NCBI RefSeq assembly: GCF_002770725.1
Contig: NZ_NQVN01000021.1
Location: forward strand, 1 to 64,000
DNA from: Pleomorphomonas carboxyditropha
GTDB lineage: Bacteria; Pseudomonadota; Alphaproteobacteria; Rhizobiales; Pleomorphomonadaceae
Direction of reading: 5' to 3'
DNA: 64,000 nucleotides
Shown: positions 200 to 60,101 of the stretch, in pieces
Numbering within the stretch: the stretch's first letter is position 1
Layout of the letters: each line of letters opens with the position of its first letter
Notes under the pieces: model-generated
Seen by the model: the letters and a program-made list of their open reading frames with translations, nothing else
The model's database searches: none
What the model was told of the DNA's origin: nothing
Translations under genes and position numbers: made by a program

Positions 200-285
200 T
201 TTTCCTATATATTATACTGTCATCCTGCGCGCAGGCGCAGGACCTCGGGCCGAAAGAGGCGCGACGCACATATCGGGCGTTCTCA
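200..285. repeat. single arm of the nested-palindrome intergenic repeat
   Basis: An AT-rich lead (tatattatactgtcatcc) is followed by a hairpin of the TCCTGCGC / GCGCAGGA type, then acctcgggccgaaagaggcgc and a tail ending in tatcgggcg. This is one half of the element present in paired form at 2708, 6234, 42924, 49395, 50922 and 55980. It lies upstream of the phytase-like gene. The partner arm is not recognisable here. Confidence 0.75.
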
Positions 286-2682: not shown

Positions 2683-2707
2683 AGCTTTCGTGAGGCTCCG
2701 TTATAGA

Positions 2708-2870
2708 GGGCGCCCTATATCCGCCGCTTGTTCCATCCTGCCCGAGGTCCTACGCCTTCGCGTAGGATGACAGAATTATATATAACAAACAGATATATAG
2801 CTTTGTCATCCTACGCGAAGGCGTAGGACCTTAGGCAGAAAGAGGCGCGAGGCACGTATCAGGCGTTCTC
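2708..2870. repeat. paired nested-palindrome intergenic repeat (full element)
   Basis: Two arms in inverted orientation flank an AT-rich centre (gaattatatataacaaacagatatatag). Each arm carries an internal hairpin, TCCTACGC-CTTC-GCGTAGGA, flanked by a conserved GCCCGAGG outer sequence and an inner GATGACA. Outer ends resemble GCGCCCTATATCCGCC and its complement. It fills the gap between two convergent genes, and no ORF of note lies in 2615-3007. Confidence 0.9.
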
Positions 2871-6226: not shown

Positions 6227-6233
6227 AGGCTCG

Positions 6234-6388
6234 GCGCCCTATCCCGATCTCTCGCCTCATTCTGCCCGAGGTCCTACGCCTTCGCGTAGGATGATAATCT
6301 ATGTATATGTTTCCTATATATAATTCTGTCATCCTGCGCGAAGGCGCAGGACCTCGGGCCGGAAAGAGCGAGACGGACATATAGGGCA
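6234..6388. repeat. paired nested-palindrome intergenic repeat
   Basis: The left arm has the TCCTACGC-CTTC-GCGTAGGA hairpin and the right arm the TCCTGCGC / GCGCAGGA variant, so the two stems differ but each pairs internally. The centre is AT-rich (atgtatatgtttcctatatataattc). Outer ends are gcgccctatcccgatc and gacatatagggc. It lies between the alcohol dehydrogenase promoter side and the end of cheR. Confidence 0.88.
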
Positions 6389-6463
6389 ACCTCCGTTCGT
6401 GAAGCCCCATCTGCGGGCAGGACGATACGGTGAACCGGGCGCTCCCCCAGCGATCGCGATCAT

Positions 6464-36482: not shown

Positions 36483-36950
36483 ACCACAGGCGAATTTCCG
36501 ACGTACCCGGGGCAAATTCCCGGGCACGCTGCTCCTCAAGCTTGCCCGGAAATCTGCCCCGGATACGCGAACGTTCCTATCACGCCGTCGCCGCCGCGCG
36601 CATCGCTTCCCATAGATTGTCATCCTCGCGCAGGCGAGGACCTCGGGACGAGAAGGGGATGAGGGGTGTATCAGGCGCCTTGCGTTGCTGGAGCGCTATA
36701 TCGGCGTTGAGCTTTGTTCTGCCCGAGGTCCTCGCCTGCGCGAGGATGACAGAATTATATATATGGGGAACAAAGGGATAGGCCGGCACACTGGTATCCG
36801 GGGCAAATTCCCGGGTGCGCTGGCGCAATATTCGTGGTTTCGCATGGGCGAGATCAGGCCATTTCAATCCTTAATGAACATTGCCGCCGCTTTCCGAGCG
36901 GAGTTTCTCAAACTGGCCAGGAAATCTGCCCTGGGTACATGTCCGACGCA
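36483..36950. repeat. composite block of two repeat families
   Basis: Contains inverted copies of CCCGGGGCAAATTCCCGGG (36506-36524, with partner near 36544-36562, again near 36800 and 36914-36936). Between them are two arms of the nested palindrome with the TCCTCGC-CTGC-GCGAGGA stem (about 36618-36650 and 36722-36755), here arranged outward rather than inward. Much of it reappears in reverse orientation at 59620-59920. It fills the gap between convergent genes; no ORF is supported. Confidence 0.85.
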
Positions 36951-42923: not shown

Positions 42924-43081
42924 GGGAACGCCCGATACCTGCCTCGCGCCTCTTTCTGCCCGAGGTCCTACGCCTGCGCGGAGGATGACAACCTATATAT
43001 TTGTTTTCTATATATAATTTGTCATCCTCCGCGCAGGCGTAGGACCTCAGGCAGGATATGGCAAGGGGTCGATATAGGGCA
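42924..43081. repeat. paired nested-palindrome intergenic repeat
   Basis: Two inward arms with a TCCTACGCCTGCGCGGAGGA-type hairpin around an AT-rich centre (acctatatatttgttttcta). The stem carries a mismatch here, the least perfect of the set, but the two arms share the same change. It occupies the gap between convergent cutA and ctrA. Confidence 0.85.
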
Positions 43082-43175
43082 CGCCTCTTCGACGAGCCGT
43101 CGAAACTCCGCCTGTCCGGACGTCCGATCGCAGCGACGCGCTCCGCCGCCGTCGCGCCGGGGCTGTCGCCTGAAA

Positions 43176-43200
43176 ACAAAAACCCCGGCGTGAGCCGGGG
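43176..43200 (-). terminator. intrinsic terminator of ctrA
   Basis: On the minus strand CCCCGGC-TCAC-GCCGGGG is followed by TTTTTGTTTT, 60 bases beyond the ctrA stop. Confidence 0.88.
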
Positions 43201-43260
43201 CGAAGCCGAGCGTGGCGCGAAAGGGGTGAAACGCGCCGCCGCCCGCTCGGTCGGATCGGG

Positions 43261-43956
43261 TCAGACCGCTTCCTGGATCTCGTCGGGCTCGCGCAGCACG
43301 TAGCCGCGGCCCCAGACCGTCTCGATATAGTTGCGGCCATCGGTGGCGTTCGCCAGCTTCTTGCGGAGCTTGCAGATGAACACGTCGATGATCTTCAGTT
43401 CCGGCTCGTCCATGCCGCCGTAGAGATGGTTGAGGAACATCTCCTTGGTGAGCGTCGTACCCTTCCTGAGGGAAAGCAGCTCCAGCATCTGGTATTCCTT
43501 GCCGGTCAGATGCACGCGGTTGCCGTTGACCTCGACGGTCTTGGTGTCGAGGTTGACCAGGAGGTCGCCGGTGACGATCACCGACTGGGCATGGCCCTTG
43601 GAGCGGCGGACGATGGCATGGATGCGGGCGATCAGCTCGTCCTTGTGGAACGGCTTGGTCATGTAGTCGTCGGCGCCGAAGCCCAGCCCGCGCACCTTGT
43701 CCTCGATGTTGCCGAGGCCGGACAGGATGAGGATCGGCGTCTTGACCTTGGACACGCGCAGCGTCCGGAGCACTTCATAGCCCGACATGTCCGGCAGGTT
43801 GAGATCCAGCAGGATGATATCGTAGTCATAGAGCTTGCCGAGGTCGATGCCTTCCTCGCCAAGGTCCGTCGTATAGACGTTGAAGCTCTCGGACTTCAGC
43901 ATCAGCTCGATGCTCTGTGCGGTCGCGCTGTCGTCCTCGATCAGCAAAACTCGCAT
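43261..43956 (-). CDS. ctrA: cell-cycle response regulator CtrA
   Basis: 231 residues, the usual CtrA length, starting [20 protein letters not shown]. Receiver with D51 as phosphate acceptor ([18 protein letters not shown]), then an OmpR-type winged helix ([49 protein letters not shown]). CtrA controls division, flagellar and other genes and is phosphorylated through ChpT. It is divergent from fliI, with GANTC sites and CtrA-like boxes in the gap suggesting methylation and autoregulatory control. Confidence 0.97.
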
Positions 43957-44357
43957 TCCGTTATCCCCTTTTTCTAGGGCCTCGGGCCCGACCTTCTGTC
44001 GGAAGCGCATCCGGTCTTCCGCCGGACATGGGCTATCGGATCCAAGGCTAGTTCCGAATGGTTAACAAACAATGATTCTCAGCCGCAAGCACTTTGACGA
44101 AAATCCTACGAAAGGTCGGGCAGGTCCTTCAGAATCAACGATAAATTGGCTTCGGTTGTCCTCATCCAGCAAATTAAGATATTTGCCTAAGCGATTCTGC
44201 CGACTCCACGAAGATTCCTTGTCCACACCCCGGGGCCTCCCGGTCGGTCGCCGCCGTACTCTTAAGCAAAGTATTAACGTCCGACCTTAACGAAGCGTTA
44301 CACTGAGGGGGTGAGCGCGAATCAATTTGGAAACCTTTTTGTCCGGAACCCCCGCCG
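43957..44357. promoter_or_regulatory. ctrA/fliI divergent control region with GANTC sites and CtrA boxes
   Basis: Six GANTC (CcrM) sites lie within 250 bases: 44074, 44132, 44193, 44202, 44213 and 44319. TTAACCAT (minus, 44058-44065) is about 100 bases before ctrA. TTAA-CGAAGCG-TTAC (44287-44301) lies 57 bases before fliI; TTAA at 44262 and 44274 are eight bases apart, one more than the consensus. The density of GANTC is well above chance for a GC-rich genome. No gene is present. Confidence 0.65.
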
Positions 44358-49229: not shown

Positions 49230-49394
49230 TTCTCGTGCTTTCTTAATCGGAGTACTGGCAGTGGCGGCCACGCGGCCGACACCGATCCGGCGCTCCCTCC
49301 AGGGGGGTCGGCGCGGATGCCGGCGCTATAGCGGAAACGGCCGGGGAAGGCAAGGGAACGGGGGATTTTATGGCACCTTGCGGTGTCGACGGGG

Positions 49395-49572
49395 AGCCCG
49401 ATATCCGCCGCCCGCTCCATCCTGCCCGAGGTCCTACGCCTTCGCGTAGGATGACAATCTATAAGAACCACCGCGAGCGGCTACGTATTTGTTTCTTATA
49501 TATAATTCTGTCATCCTACGCGAAGGCGTAGGACCTCGGACCGAAGAGGGCGCAACGCGGATATAGGGCGCA
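49395..49572. repeat. paired nested-palindrome intergenic repeat
   Basis: Both arms have the TCCTACGC-CTTC-GCGTAGGA stem. The centre is longer than elsewhere, with an insertion (aaccaccgcgagcggctacg) before the usual tttgtttcttatatataatt. It lies in the divergent gap between rplY and the AGE epimerase, so it is not confined to gene ends. Confidence 0.88.
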
Positions 49573-49679
49573 CCCGTCTTGCCGGGCGGCTTCGGGGCAT
49601 TGCGGTCTGGCAATCCGCATGAAAACGTTTAGGACAGCGGGGCCGGTCCGGAATGTCCGGTGTACAGGAGCGGCAGGCG

Positions 49680-50882: not shown

Positions 50883-50921
50883 GCGGCGTCGAGGACTTCG
50901 GGGTGGGAAACTCGGGAGCCG

Positions 50922-51078
50922 GGCGCCTATATGTGCCGATTGCCCCATTCTGCCCGAGGTCCTGCGCCTTCGCGCGGGATGACAGAATTATATAATGAAA
51001 ACAAATATATAGATTGTCATCCTGCGCGAAGGCGCAGGACCTCATGCCGGAAAATGCGTGACGTGGATATCGGACGCC
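50922..51078. repeat. paired nested-palindrome intergenic repeat
   Basis: Left arm TCCTGCGC-CTTC-GCGCGGGA and right arm TCCTGCGC / GCGCAGGA flank aattatataatgaaaacaaa. Outer ends are gggcgcctatatgtgccg and gtggatatcggacgcc. Located between convergent genes. Confidence 0.87.
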
Positions 51079-51099
51079 AAAACCCGGCGCCCATCATCC

Positions 51100-55777: not shown

Positions 55778-55979
55778 CGTGGTCCTTCTGTCGGGTAGCG
55801 GCGCGAACCCGCCGGGCGAAATTCCCGCGACCGAGGATTGATGGGCGTTTACCACGGCGTCAAGCTTTATGTCCGCCTCGGGCGCCGGCGGGCCTCCGCC
55901 CTTGGCTTTCGCGCTTCGCTTTGCGCCAGCACCGCCGAGGCGACTTCGAGGTGGCCCCCATTTTAATGGTCGGTATGGC

Positions 55980-56125
55980 GATCTATATATGCCGCCCGCT
56001 TCATCCTGCCCGAGGTCCTCCGCGTAGAGGACAACTTATAGAGCTGATTCCTATATATAATTCTGTCATCCTGCGCGCAGGCGCAGGACCTCGGGCAGGA
56101 AAGGGCACAAGGCGAATATAGGGTG
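55980..56125. repeat. paired nested-palindrome intergenic repeat
   Basis: The left arm is shortened (TCCTCCGCGTAGAGGA) and only partly pairs, while the right arm keeps TCCTGCGC / GCGCAGGA. The centre is acttatagagctgattccta. It sits in the divergent gap between lgt and ubiK; the remaining gap sequence 55778-55979 and 56126-56315 holds no recognisable feature. Confidence 0.85.
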
Positions 56126-56315
56126 CCAGTTCCGCGAAAATGGCTTGGCATGCATTTGCCTGTCGCAGCAAGGGAGCGGGCGCTTGGTTCCGCCCCTTTC
56201 GACGCTGCACCCGCTCGCGCGGTTCCAACTGCTTCCCCGTTCCATCTTCCGCTTGAAGCGGAATGGACGAGGGGCCAAATAGGAGGTCTGGTCCGCCATT
56301 TTGGAGACGACTGTC

Positions 56316-59517: not shown

Positions 59518-59559
59518 GGGAGATTCTCGGCGCGCTCCATCCTCTCGGCTATCGGGGGG

Positions 59560-60062
59560 AGATCGATATCGGCCGATCGCTCCATTCTGCCCGAGGTCCT
59601 ACGCCTTCGCGCAGGATGACGATCCATGGGAGGCGATGCGCTCGGCGACGACGGCGTGACAGGGACGTTCGCGTATCCGGGCAAATTTCCGGGCAAGCTT
59701 GAGAGATAGCGTATCCGGGGAATTTGCCTCGGGTCCCAGTGTGCCGGACTATCCCTTTGTTCCCCATATATAAAGCCGTCATCCTCGCGCAGGCGAGGAC
59801 CTCGGGCAGAACAAAGCTCGACGCCGATATGGCGCTCCAGCAACGCTGGGGCGCCTGATACATCCCTCATCCCCTTCTCGTCCCGAGGTCCTCGCCTTCG
59901 CGAGGATGACACTCTATGGAAGGCGAAGGCGAAGGCGATGCGCTCGGCGATGATGGCGTAACAGGAGCATTCACGGATCCGGGAATTTGTCCCGGGTACT
60001 CATCCTACGCGAAGGCGTAGGACCTCGGGCAGGAAAGGACGAGACGCAACTATAGGGCGTCG
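59560..60062. repeat. composite block of nested palindromes and CCGGGGCAAATT repeats
   Basis: Four palindrome arms (about 59583, 59780, 59880 and 60000) use both TCCTACGC and TCCTCGC stems. Between them are copies of the second family (gtatccgggcaaatttcc near 59677, tatccggggaatttgcc near 59715, gatccgggaatttgtcccg near 59975). The part 59620-59920 matches 36483-36830 in reverse orientation, including the landmark aacaaagctcgacgccgat. It fills the 629-base gap after uvrC; no gene is supported. Confidence 0.85.
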
Positions 60063-60101
60063 GCACGTTCCCCTATGGATTGCGACATTATTCGGGACTA
60101 G

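Follow-up and report, generated by a model that had tools for sequence, protein, structure and literature searches.

Palindromic repeat elements in the window

The window, a stretch of 64,000 nucleotides from contig 13 of the Pleomorphomonas genome under study (G000; a draft of 5.88 Mb in 80 contigs), was found to carry 19 arms of a palindromic repeat at nine loci, as the original prediction had counted, with arms in all nine places (Table 1). The arms had also been described as usually lying in inverted pairs. Head-to-head pairs do occupy seven of the nine loci, the cluster at 59555 to 60064 contributing two of them, but the description does not extend to the lone arm at 219 or to the tail-to-tail pair at 36619/36750. 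No Rfam family matched within the window at gathering thresholds.

Table 1. Repeat arms, elements, and examples of their parts in the 64,000-nucleotide window
Positions	Strand	Feature	Details
203..284	+	Single arm	Stem TCCTGCGC/GCGCAGGA, loop GCAG
2706..2870		Head-to-head element	Two ACGC/GCGT arms, 33-bp spacer, convergent gene gap
2748..2771	-	Arm core, example	GTCA tag, 8-bp stem, GAAG loop
2772..2804		AT-rich spacer, example	33 long, on comb
6230..6393		Head-to-head element	32-bp spacer
36603..36767		Tail-to-tail arm pair (36619/36750)	7-bp stems
42924..43086		Head-to-head element	31-bp spacer
49390..49575		Head-to-head element	54-bp spacer
50918..51081		Head-to-head element	32-bp spacer
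55974..56130		Head-to-head element	29-bp spacer, left arm truncated
59555..60064		Four-arm cluster	Order -+-+, head-to-head spacers of 157 and 88 bp

Read outward from the spacer, an arm consists of TGTCA, a stem (for example, TCCTACGC/GCGTAGGA), a loop, the motif CCTCGGGC, and about 31 more conserved bases ending in GATATAGGGCKCC, beyond which conservation falls sharply. The outer boundary GGMGCCCTATATC is sharp at both ends of an element. In 95% of 305 anchored arms, a T precedes GTC, which itself had been used as the anchor. Stems are 8 bp long in most anchored arms, with a 7-bp subset; the second stem position is T-A, and at the first an A faces C (consensus GTCATCC..GGACC). Loops among 386 perfect stems include GAAG (219) and GCAG (143), and the tail starts with CCT and then continues as the long conserved arm. 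The AT-rich spacer often has the box TTATATATAGGAAACA at one end and a CATAGATT-like sequence at the opposite end.

Neighboring arms less than 165 bp apart in the G000 stretches (n = 162) form 119 head-to-head, 37 tail-to-tail, and 6 tandem pairs, and tail-to-tail distances are concentrated at 130 to 137 bp (35 of the 49 below 400 bp). On contig 15 of G000 (L160, 10689 to 11319), seven alternating arms make up a tandem array that, along most of its extent, repeats every 185 bp. The congeners G001, G003, G005, G007, G010, and G013 showed composite arms, whose hairpin holds an extra palindrome ending CTTGAATTC..GAATTCAAGGTGGA before CCTCGGGC. The proposal that whole elements could fold in two tiers agrees with the predictions for the three elements folded (2740, 42950, and 50945), in which the hairpins and the spacer join into one long hairpin (z of -11 to -17), compared with a short hairpin (z of about -3.5) predicted for a single arm alone.

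Stem covariation and copying of arms in pairs

The original prediction held that both sides of the stem change together. This is mostly so in the window, where 14 of the 19 stems are perfectly Watson-Crick paired (letters read by eye); it does not hold for the stems at 42989, 43021, and 50983, with one mismatch each, that at 59620, with one G.T pair, and that at 56035, which is truncated. RNAalifold, applied to the 19 window arms only, found one pair changed on both sides (covariation term, 0.03). Across G000 and nine congeners, perfect stems are present in 386 of 548 anchored arms, in many variants. Those of G000 include TCCTACGC/GCGTAGGA, TCCTGCGC/GCGCAGGA, TCCTCCGC/GCGGAGGA, and TCCTATGC/GCATAGGA, with TCCTCGC/GCGAGGA and TCCCCGC/GCGGGGA among the shorter ones, and the congeners contribute TCCTCTGC/GCAGAGGA, TCCTGGC/GCCAGGA, and TCCTTGC/GCGAGGA, the last with a T.G pair.

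Covariation was scored in alignments, fitted to the model structure, of the best 150 of 318 matches in G000 and the best 150 of 252 in the congeners. In the G000 alignment, 99.2% of cells are paired, with a covariation score of 0.182 (shuffled controls, 0.075; slid controls, at most 0.058); its 3 double-change pairs (reached by 58 of 500 shuffles) and 8 further pair types (325 of 500) are not above the shuffles, because nearly all of the change is at two stem positions. The congener alignment is 99.6% paired and scores 0.198 (shuffled, 0.092; slid, at most 0.106), with 4 double-change pairs (reached by 7 of 500 shuffles) and 9 further types (30 of 500). The covariation expected from the original prediction is thus present, mainly at two positions: it exceeds the slid controls, and it exceeds the shuffles in three of five measures for G000 and in all five for the congeners, two of them less strongly. 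The shuffles overstate its significance, because the arms are related copies fitted to a model.

The two arms of an element tend to share a stem variant. Counting only head-to-head pairs in which both stems are perfect (81 of 118 in G000 and 41 of 98 in the congeners), both arms have the same variant in 48 of the 81 G000 pairs (shuffled mean, 17.0; maximum of 2,000 shuffles, 29) and in 29 of the 41 congener pairs (shuffled mean, 13.9; maximum, 24), which argues that copying or correction acts on the element as a whole. The earlier reading of the repeats as products of selection or copying of structure draws support from both the covariation and this joint copying. Distinct stems with a single mispair, read on the GTCA strand, comprise 24 with G.T, 11 with A.C, and 10 with other mismatches; by arms, the counts are 79 G.T and 15 A.C, and a single stem position accounts for 56 of the 79. 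Since the stem letters change while pairing stays, what is maintained appears to be a hairpin or a cruciform and not a protein site of fixed sequence.

Distribution within the genome and the genus

The exact pattern GTCATCCT-N5-12-AGGACCTCGGGC has 91 forward and 75 reverse matches (166 in all) in the 5.88-Mb genome, which bears out the description of a large family, and the same pattern read backwards has 0 and 0. Over 768,650 bases of G000, in stretches chosen as arm-rich, the covariance model gave 318 matches with E up to 0.001; the 19-arm model was trained on those same window arms and so is no independent test of them. Arm density is uneven, with 81 anchored arms in 113 kb of contig C9, 25 in 16 kb of contig C39, and 26 arms in the 948-kb contig C11, which was sampled in part. 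The dense contigs C9 and C39 could be recently acquired or plasmid-like DNA.

A 677-aa protein encoded in the window is 94% identical to one from Pleomorphomonas sp. NRK KF1 (L031), by protein the closest relative with a name. Model matches occur in 12 of the 14 genomes of the genus, G000 included (G002 has 26). The covariance model found no match in the congeners G004 and G012, which are the most divergent at the gene at 43265 to 44005 (90% identity versus 94 to 96%). Outside the genus, model R1, run with stricter filters, gave three weak single matches in a 297-genome sample of the order, two of which (L230 and L232) resemble TGTCATCCCCGC-type REPs by eye, and it gave no match in five listed genomes from other genera of the same family. 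Perfect CGTC-like hairpins are few in 80 Hyphomicrobiales loci (22 in 1.69 Mb, with three head-to-head pairs).

Individual sites differ between species. By eye, the 49390 element is absent from all seven congeners that were anchored, and the 50918 element is shared by G000, G007, and G010 and missing from G001, G002, G005, G011, and G012 among the anchored congeners; for these two sites, the remaining congeners were unanchorable by script or, in the case of G013, had anchors too far apart. At the site orthologous to 42924, five of the 13 congeners could be anchored, and none of these five has a GTCATCC core. Unit copying together with presence or absence at the species level argues for mobility.

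Gene context

By home-made and approximate gene calls, in stretches chosen as arm-rich, 302 of 305 anchored arms are intergenic, compared with 80% of random points lying inside genes. By the same calls, 46 of the 86 convergent gaps of at least 60 bp hold arms; the corresponding figures are 44 of 218 for tandem gaps and 15 of 112 for divergent gaps. All three kinds of gap hold arms, as had been noted for the window, and arms favor convergent gaps, that is, the 3' ends of genes.

At 50918, the five anchored congeners without the element carry another hairpin between the converging genes (by eye). In the window, a CCCCGGC..GCCGGGG hairpin at 43086 to 43261 adjoins the 42924 element, and it is also found in G005, G006, and G007, all of which lack that element. 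Replacement of a terminator, suggested at 50918, was not repeated at 42924, and this idea was rejected.

Relationship to known repeat families

Short intergenic palindromic mosaics, RIME and Bru-RS, occur in related bacteria of the Hyphomicrobiales and are similar to the present repeats by description alone. The original prediction recognized no named family. In tag, stem length, loop, and dimer habit, however, and apparently, as far as PF01797 genes go, in having no transposase, the repeats match the CGTC-tagged REPs as described in the available part of PMC3733652. There, the tag is CGTC, TGTC, or CCTC, the stem is of several types and 8 to 9 bp long, and the loop has 4 to 5 nucleotides; head-to-head dimers predominate, mainly in alphaproteobacteria, and there is no transposase. 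The same text reports complementary A/T at stem positions 1 and 2 "almost invariably" and dimer spacers of mostly 20 to 100 bp, variable or conserved, with no helical period mentioned in that part; its family CGTC-1 includes Neisseria dRS3 and Rickettsia RPE-6.

Like CGTC-1, the Pleomorphomonas arms have a TGTC tag, an 8-bp stem, and a 4-nucleotide loop, and the elements are mostly head-to-head dimers, intergenic, alphaproteobacterial, and, as far as PF01797 genes go, apparently without a dedicated transposase. Unlike CGTC-1, they have A opposite C rather than A-T at the first stem position, a conserved AT-rich spacer box, and an 11-bp spacer comb (see below); tail-to-tail pairs are not rare (37 of the 162 close pairs), and the tail is CCTCGGGC plus about 31 further conserved bases, whereas PMC3733652 gives a short tail, mostly CCA. 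We propose to place the repeats in the CGTC-tagged REP superfamily as a Pleomorphomonas branch, a variant rather than a standard member because PMC3733652 calls A/T at stem positions 1 and 2 near-invariant.

The elements are also like the REPINs in the accessible sections of PMC3116915 in being inverted doublets copied as a unit, with a predicted long hairpin and preferred spacings (71 and 110 bp for the REPINs of P. fluorescens SBW25). They differ from REPINs and GTAG REPs in the tag, TGTC and not GTAG, and in that G000 has no PF01797 gene; furthermore, those sections give no helical comb for REPINs, the word "helical" being absent from the text. In the open-license literature, we found nothing nearer than PMC3733652 on alphaproteobacterial REPIN/RAYT systems, rhizobial mosaic elements, or Pleomorphomonas repeats, nor on CGTC REP transposases, helical phasing of REP spacers, or transposon length periodicity.

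Spacer lengths

The head-to-head spacer was measured as the distance between the two GTCA feet, and arms without a clean core anchor (16 of 321, 6 of 249, and 13 of 295) were left out of this work. The nonidentical spacers number 324 below 165 bp, and 241 of these are up to 100 bp long. Their lengths form a comb at about 32, 43, 54, 67, 77, and 87 bp, with classes of 29 to 35, 41 to 47, 51 to 58, 65 to 69, 71 to 79, 83 to 92, and 95 to 98 bp; among the 241 spacers, lengths of 36 to 40, 48 to 50, 59 to 64, 80 to 82, 93 to 94, and 99 to 100 bp are missing, as are 44, 45, 70, and 96 bp. The best period for the 241 is 11.2 bp (resultant, 0.61), and it is 10.9 bp (0.59) with G000 left out (n = 137). 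This comb, which the original prediction had missed, is what is new here.

The period was first suggested by 216 spacers in 81 sequence clusters. For a later sample of 40 additional stretches from eight congeners, the phase (32) and period (11.1) were fixed beforehand; the sample is not fully independent of the first, to which it is tied by ancestry and by some of the same genomes, with removal limited to identical spacers. Of its 44 spacers of 37 to 100 bp, 29 are no more than 2 bp away from a comb position, where 16.5 would be expected (p = 2e-4), and the resultant at the 11.1-bp period is 0.51 (p = 1e-4), although for this sample on its own a period of 14.5 bp fits the 37- to 100-bp spacers better (0.60 versus 0.51). 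In the first set, the spacers longer than 36 bp that are in phase are 23 of 41 in the congeners versus 54 of 77 in G000.

After clustering by inner sequence at three thresholds, the comb has p values of 0.003, 0.0003, and 0.0003. The loosest of these thresholds links 104 of 118 inner parts in a single chained cluster, which shows the spacers to be related; together with their shared end boxes, this makes descent from few ancestors probable. Single-linkage clustering of spacers, in which 169 of 172 chained into two clusters (p = 0.78), was uninformative. When each length class counts once, p is 0.005, or 0.018 under a null that keeps the classes 7 bp or more from one another, with class centers picked by the analyst from the histogram. 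Above 100 bp, the comb signal is weak (0.16; n = 44), as expected if longer DNA twists freely. The period fits the in vivo helical repeats of bacterial DNA, which the available parts of PMC8501960 and PMC1831498 put at 10.9 to 11 bp. We consider the comb probably real and the chances that it reflects helical phasing about even.

Tight spacing was also seen in two other alphaproteobacterial families, with pairs found by a pattern allowing 24 to 54 bp and lengths counted by hand from the listed places. In one genome (G669), 40 of 42 GGATGAC..GTCATCC pairs have spacers of 27 to 32 bp with varied sequences, at least one of the 40 resembling chance coding sequence. In the other (G658), 31 of the 33 pairs listed, of 42, have spacers of 42 to 45 bp and the other two 25 bp, lengths that differ by 18 against the 11-bp step, and a search of 55 to 85 bp gave two longer pairs, of 56 and 68 bp. 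Neither genome has an 11-bp comb of its own between 24 and 54 bp or, for G658, also between 55 and 85 bp. The tightness could reflect a length constraint or shared descent outside the genus.

Search for a mobilizing enzyme

The original prediction had raised a linked RAYT-like transposase. No PF01797 gene of this kind was found in the G000 genome, and a RAYT was rejected as its present-day mobilizer on that account. Of the 14 genomes of the genus, 3 have PF01797 matches, each of them one of the 12 that bear arms, and the four loci of 3.2 to 3.4 kb around these genes contain no arm at E up to 0.001. Nor were target-site duplications detected: the longest word shared by the two flanks averaged 5.63 in 72 isolated elements, compared with 5.57 in shuffled flanks, and exact adjacent words gave no signal in 108 elements. 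In the scanned stretches of G000 and nine congeners, outer-end matches adjoin anchored arms in 83 of 91 cases, and the remaining 8 showed no pairing within 10 kb. With no target-site duplications and no paired free ends, the stretches read give no support to an origin of the copies as decayed ends of one known insertion sequence. The available part of PMC3733652 states that CGTC REPs "apparently lack a dedicated transposase" and left their spread open in 2013, and we found no later answer in the open-license literature.

Models for the spread of the elements

We propose that the spreading unit would be a two-arm head-to-head element, about 160 bp long with the shortest spacers, that runs from an outer end GGMGCCCTATATC through a REP hairpin, an AT-rich spacer with the box TTATATATAGGAAACA, and a second REP hairpin to the other outer end. 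Each arm would be kept by base pairing and not by a fixed stem sequence. The comb would arise if the two arms were required to share one face of the double helix, most simply because a candidate protein assembly, either a mobilizing enzyme acting in trans or a nucleoid protein, would bind both together. A helical comb would favor an arrangement in which both arms are engaged on one face of double-stranded DNA, and single-stranded chemistry would need no phasing. We infer, from the spacer lengths, helical phasing under selection and a protein that may bridge the arms and may also drive their mobility. Taken as a whole (a CGTC REP branch, a two-arm unit, and a comb from same-face bridging), this explanation is tentative, and we put it at slightly below even odds, roughly 45%.

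The comb could instead record history rather than function, if a few ancestral spacer lengths, some of them produced by duplication, had been kept since indels are rare. The shared end boxes, the chaining of inner parts, class-level p values of only 0.005 to 0.018, and the resemblance, by eye, of some long spacers to internal duplications of shorter ones all fit such a history, which we consider possible but somewhat doubtful: lengths within a class vary by 1 to 3 bp, yet the gaps between classes remain empty, and a second sample, itself not fully independent, kept to the same phase. A role as selected RNA structures at gene ends, as terminators or 3'-end stabilizers, is unlikely. RNA folding demands no 11-bp spacer step, the elements are gained and lost between species, and the CCCCGGC/GCCGGGG hairpin stands alongside the 42924 element in G000 and also in three congeners without it; these points stand against the higher occupancy of convergent gaps, the strong predicted folding, and the other hairpin at 50918 in the five anchored congeners without the element.

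The elements might also be REPIN-like and have been moved as single-stranded DNA by a RAYT (an HUH/Y1 tyrosine transposase) since lost from most of the genus. Inverted REP doublets, unit copying, and intergenic position recall the REPINs of PMC3116915, in the part available, and the excess of G.T over A.C on the GTCA strand (24 versus 11 distinct stems) is as if that strand folds. The tag, however, is TGTC and not GTAG, PF01797 is absent from G000 and has no arms at its four loci elsewhere in the genus, and alphaproteobacteria have none or few tnpA-Y1 genes, according to the accessible portion of PMC6006769. Moreover, an 11-bp comb has no reason under single-stranded mobility, and we regard this account as quite improbable. 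It is very improbable that the elements are miniature derivatives of an element with a classical double-strand transposase recognizing the outer ends, given that no target-site duplication was detected and that the outer-end matches either lie next to arms or are unpaired within 10 kb, even though the sharp GGMGCCCTATATC boundary at both ends suits such an enzyme. Transposition of very short IS50 derivatives reportedly varies with helical turn, which also counts in favor of a miniature element.

Implications for CGTC-tagged REPs

The reading that we prefer, in which the arms are bridged on one face of the helix, can be extended to CGTC REP dimers in general: a putative protein that recognizes paired hairpin-forming arms and bridges them in this way would be the missing CGTC mobilizer, and the spacers would record its geometry. 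We hold this extension to be doubtful. If the period of the comb is that of the DNA helix, it would favor an intermediate that is double-stranded and bridged by protein over single-stranded HUH chemistry. The Pleomorphomonas family, which has several spacer classes and hundreds of copies and is without model matches in two genomes of the genus, is suited to testing how CGTC REPs spread.
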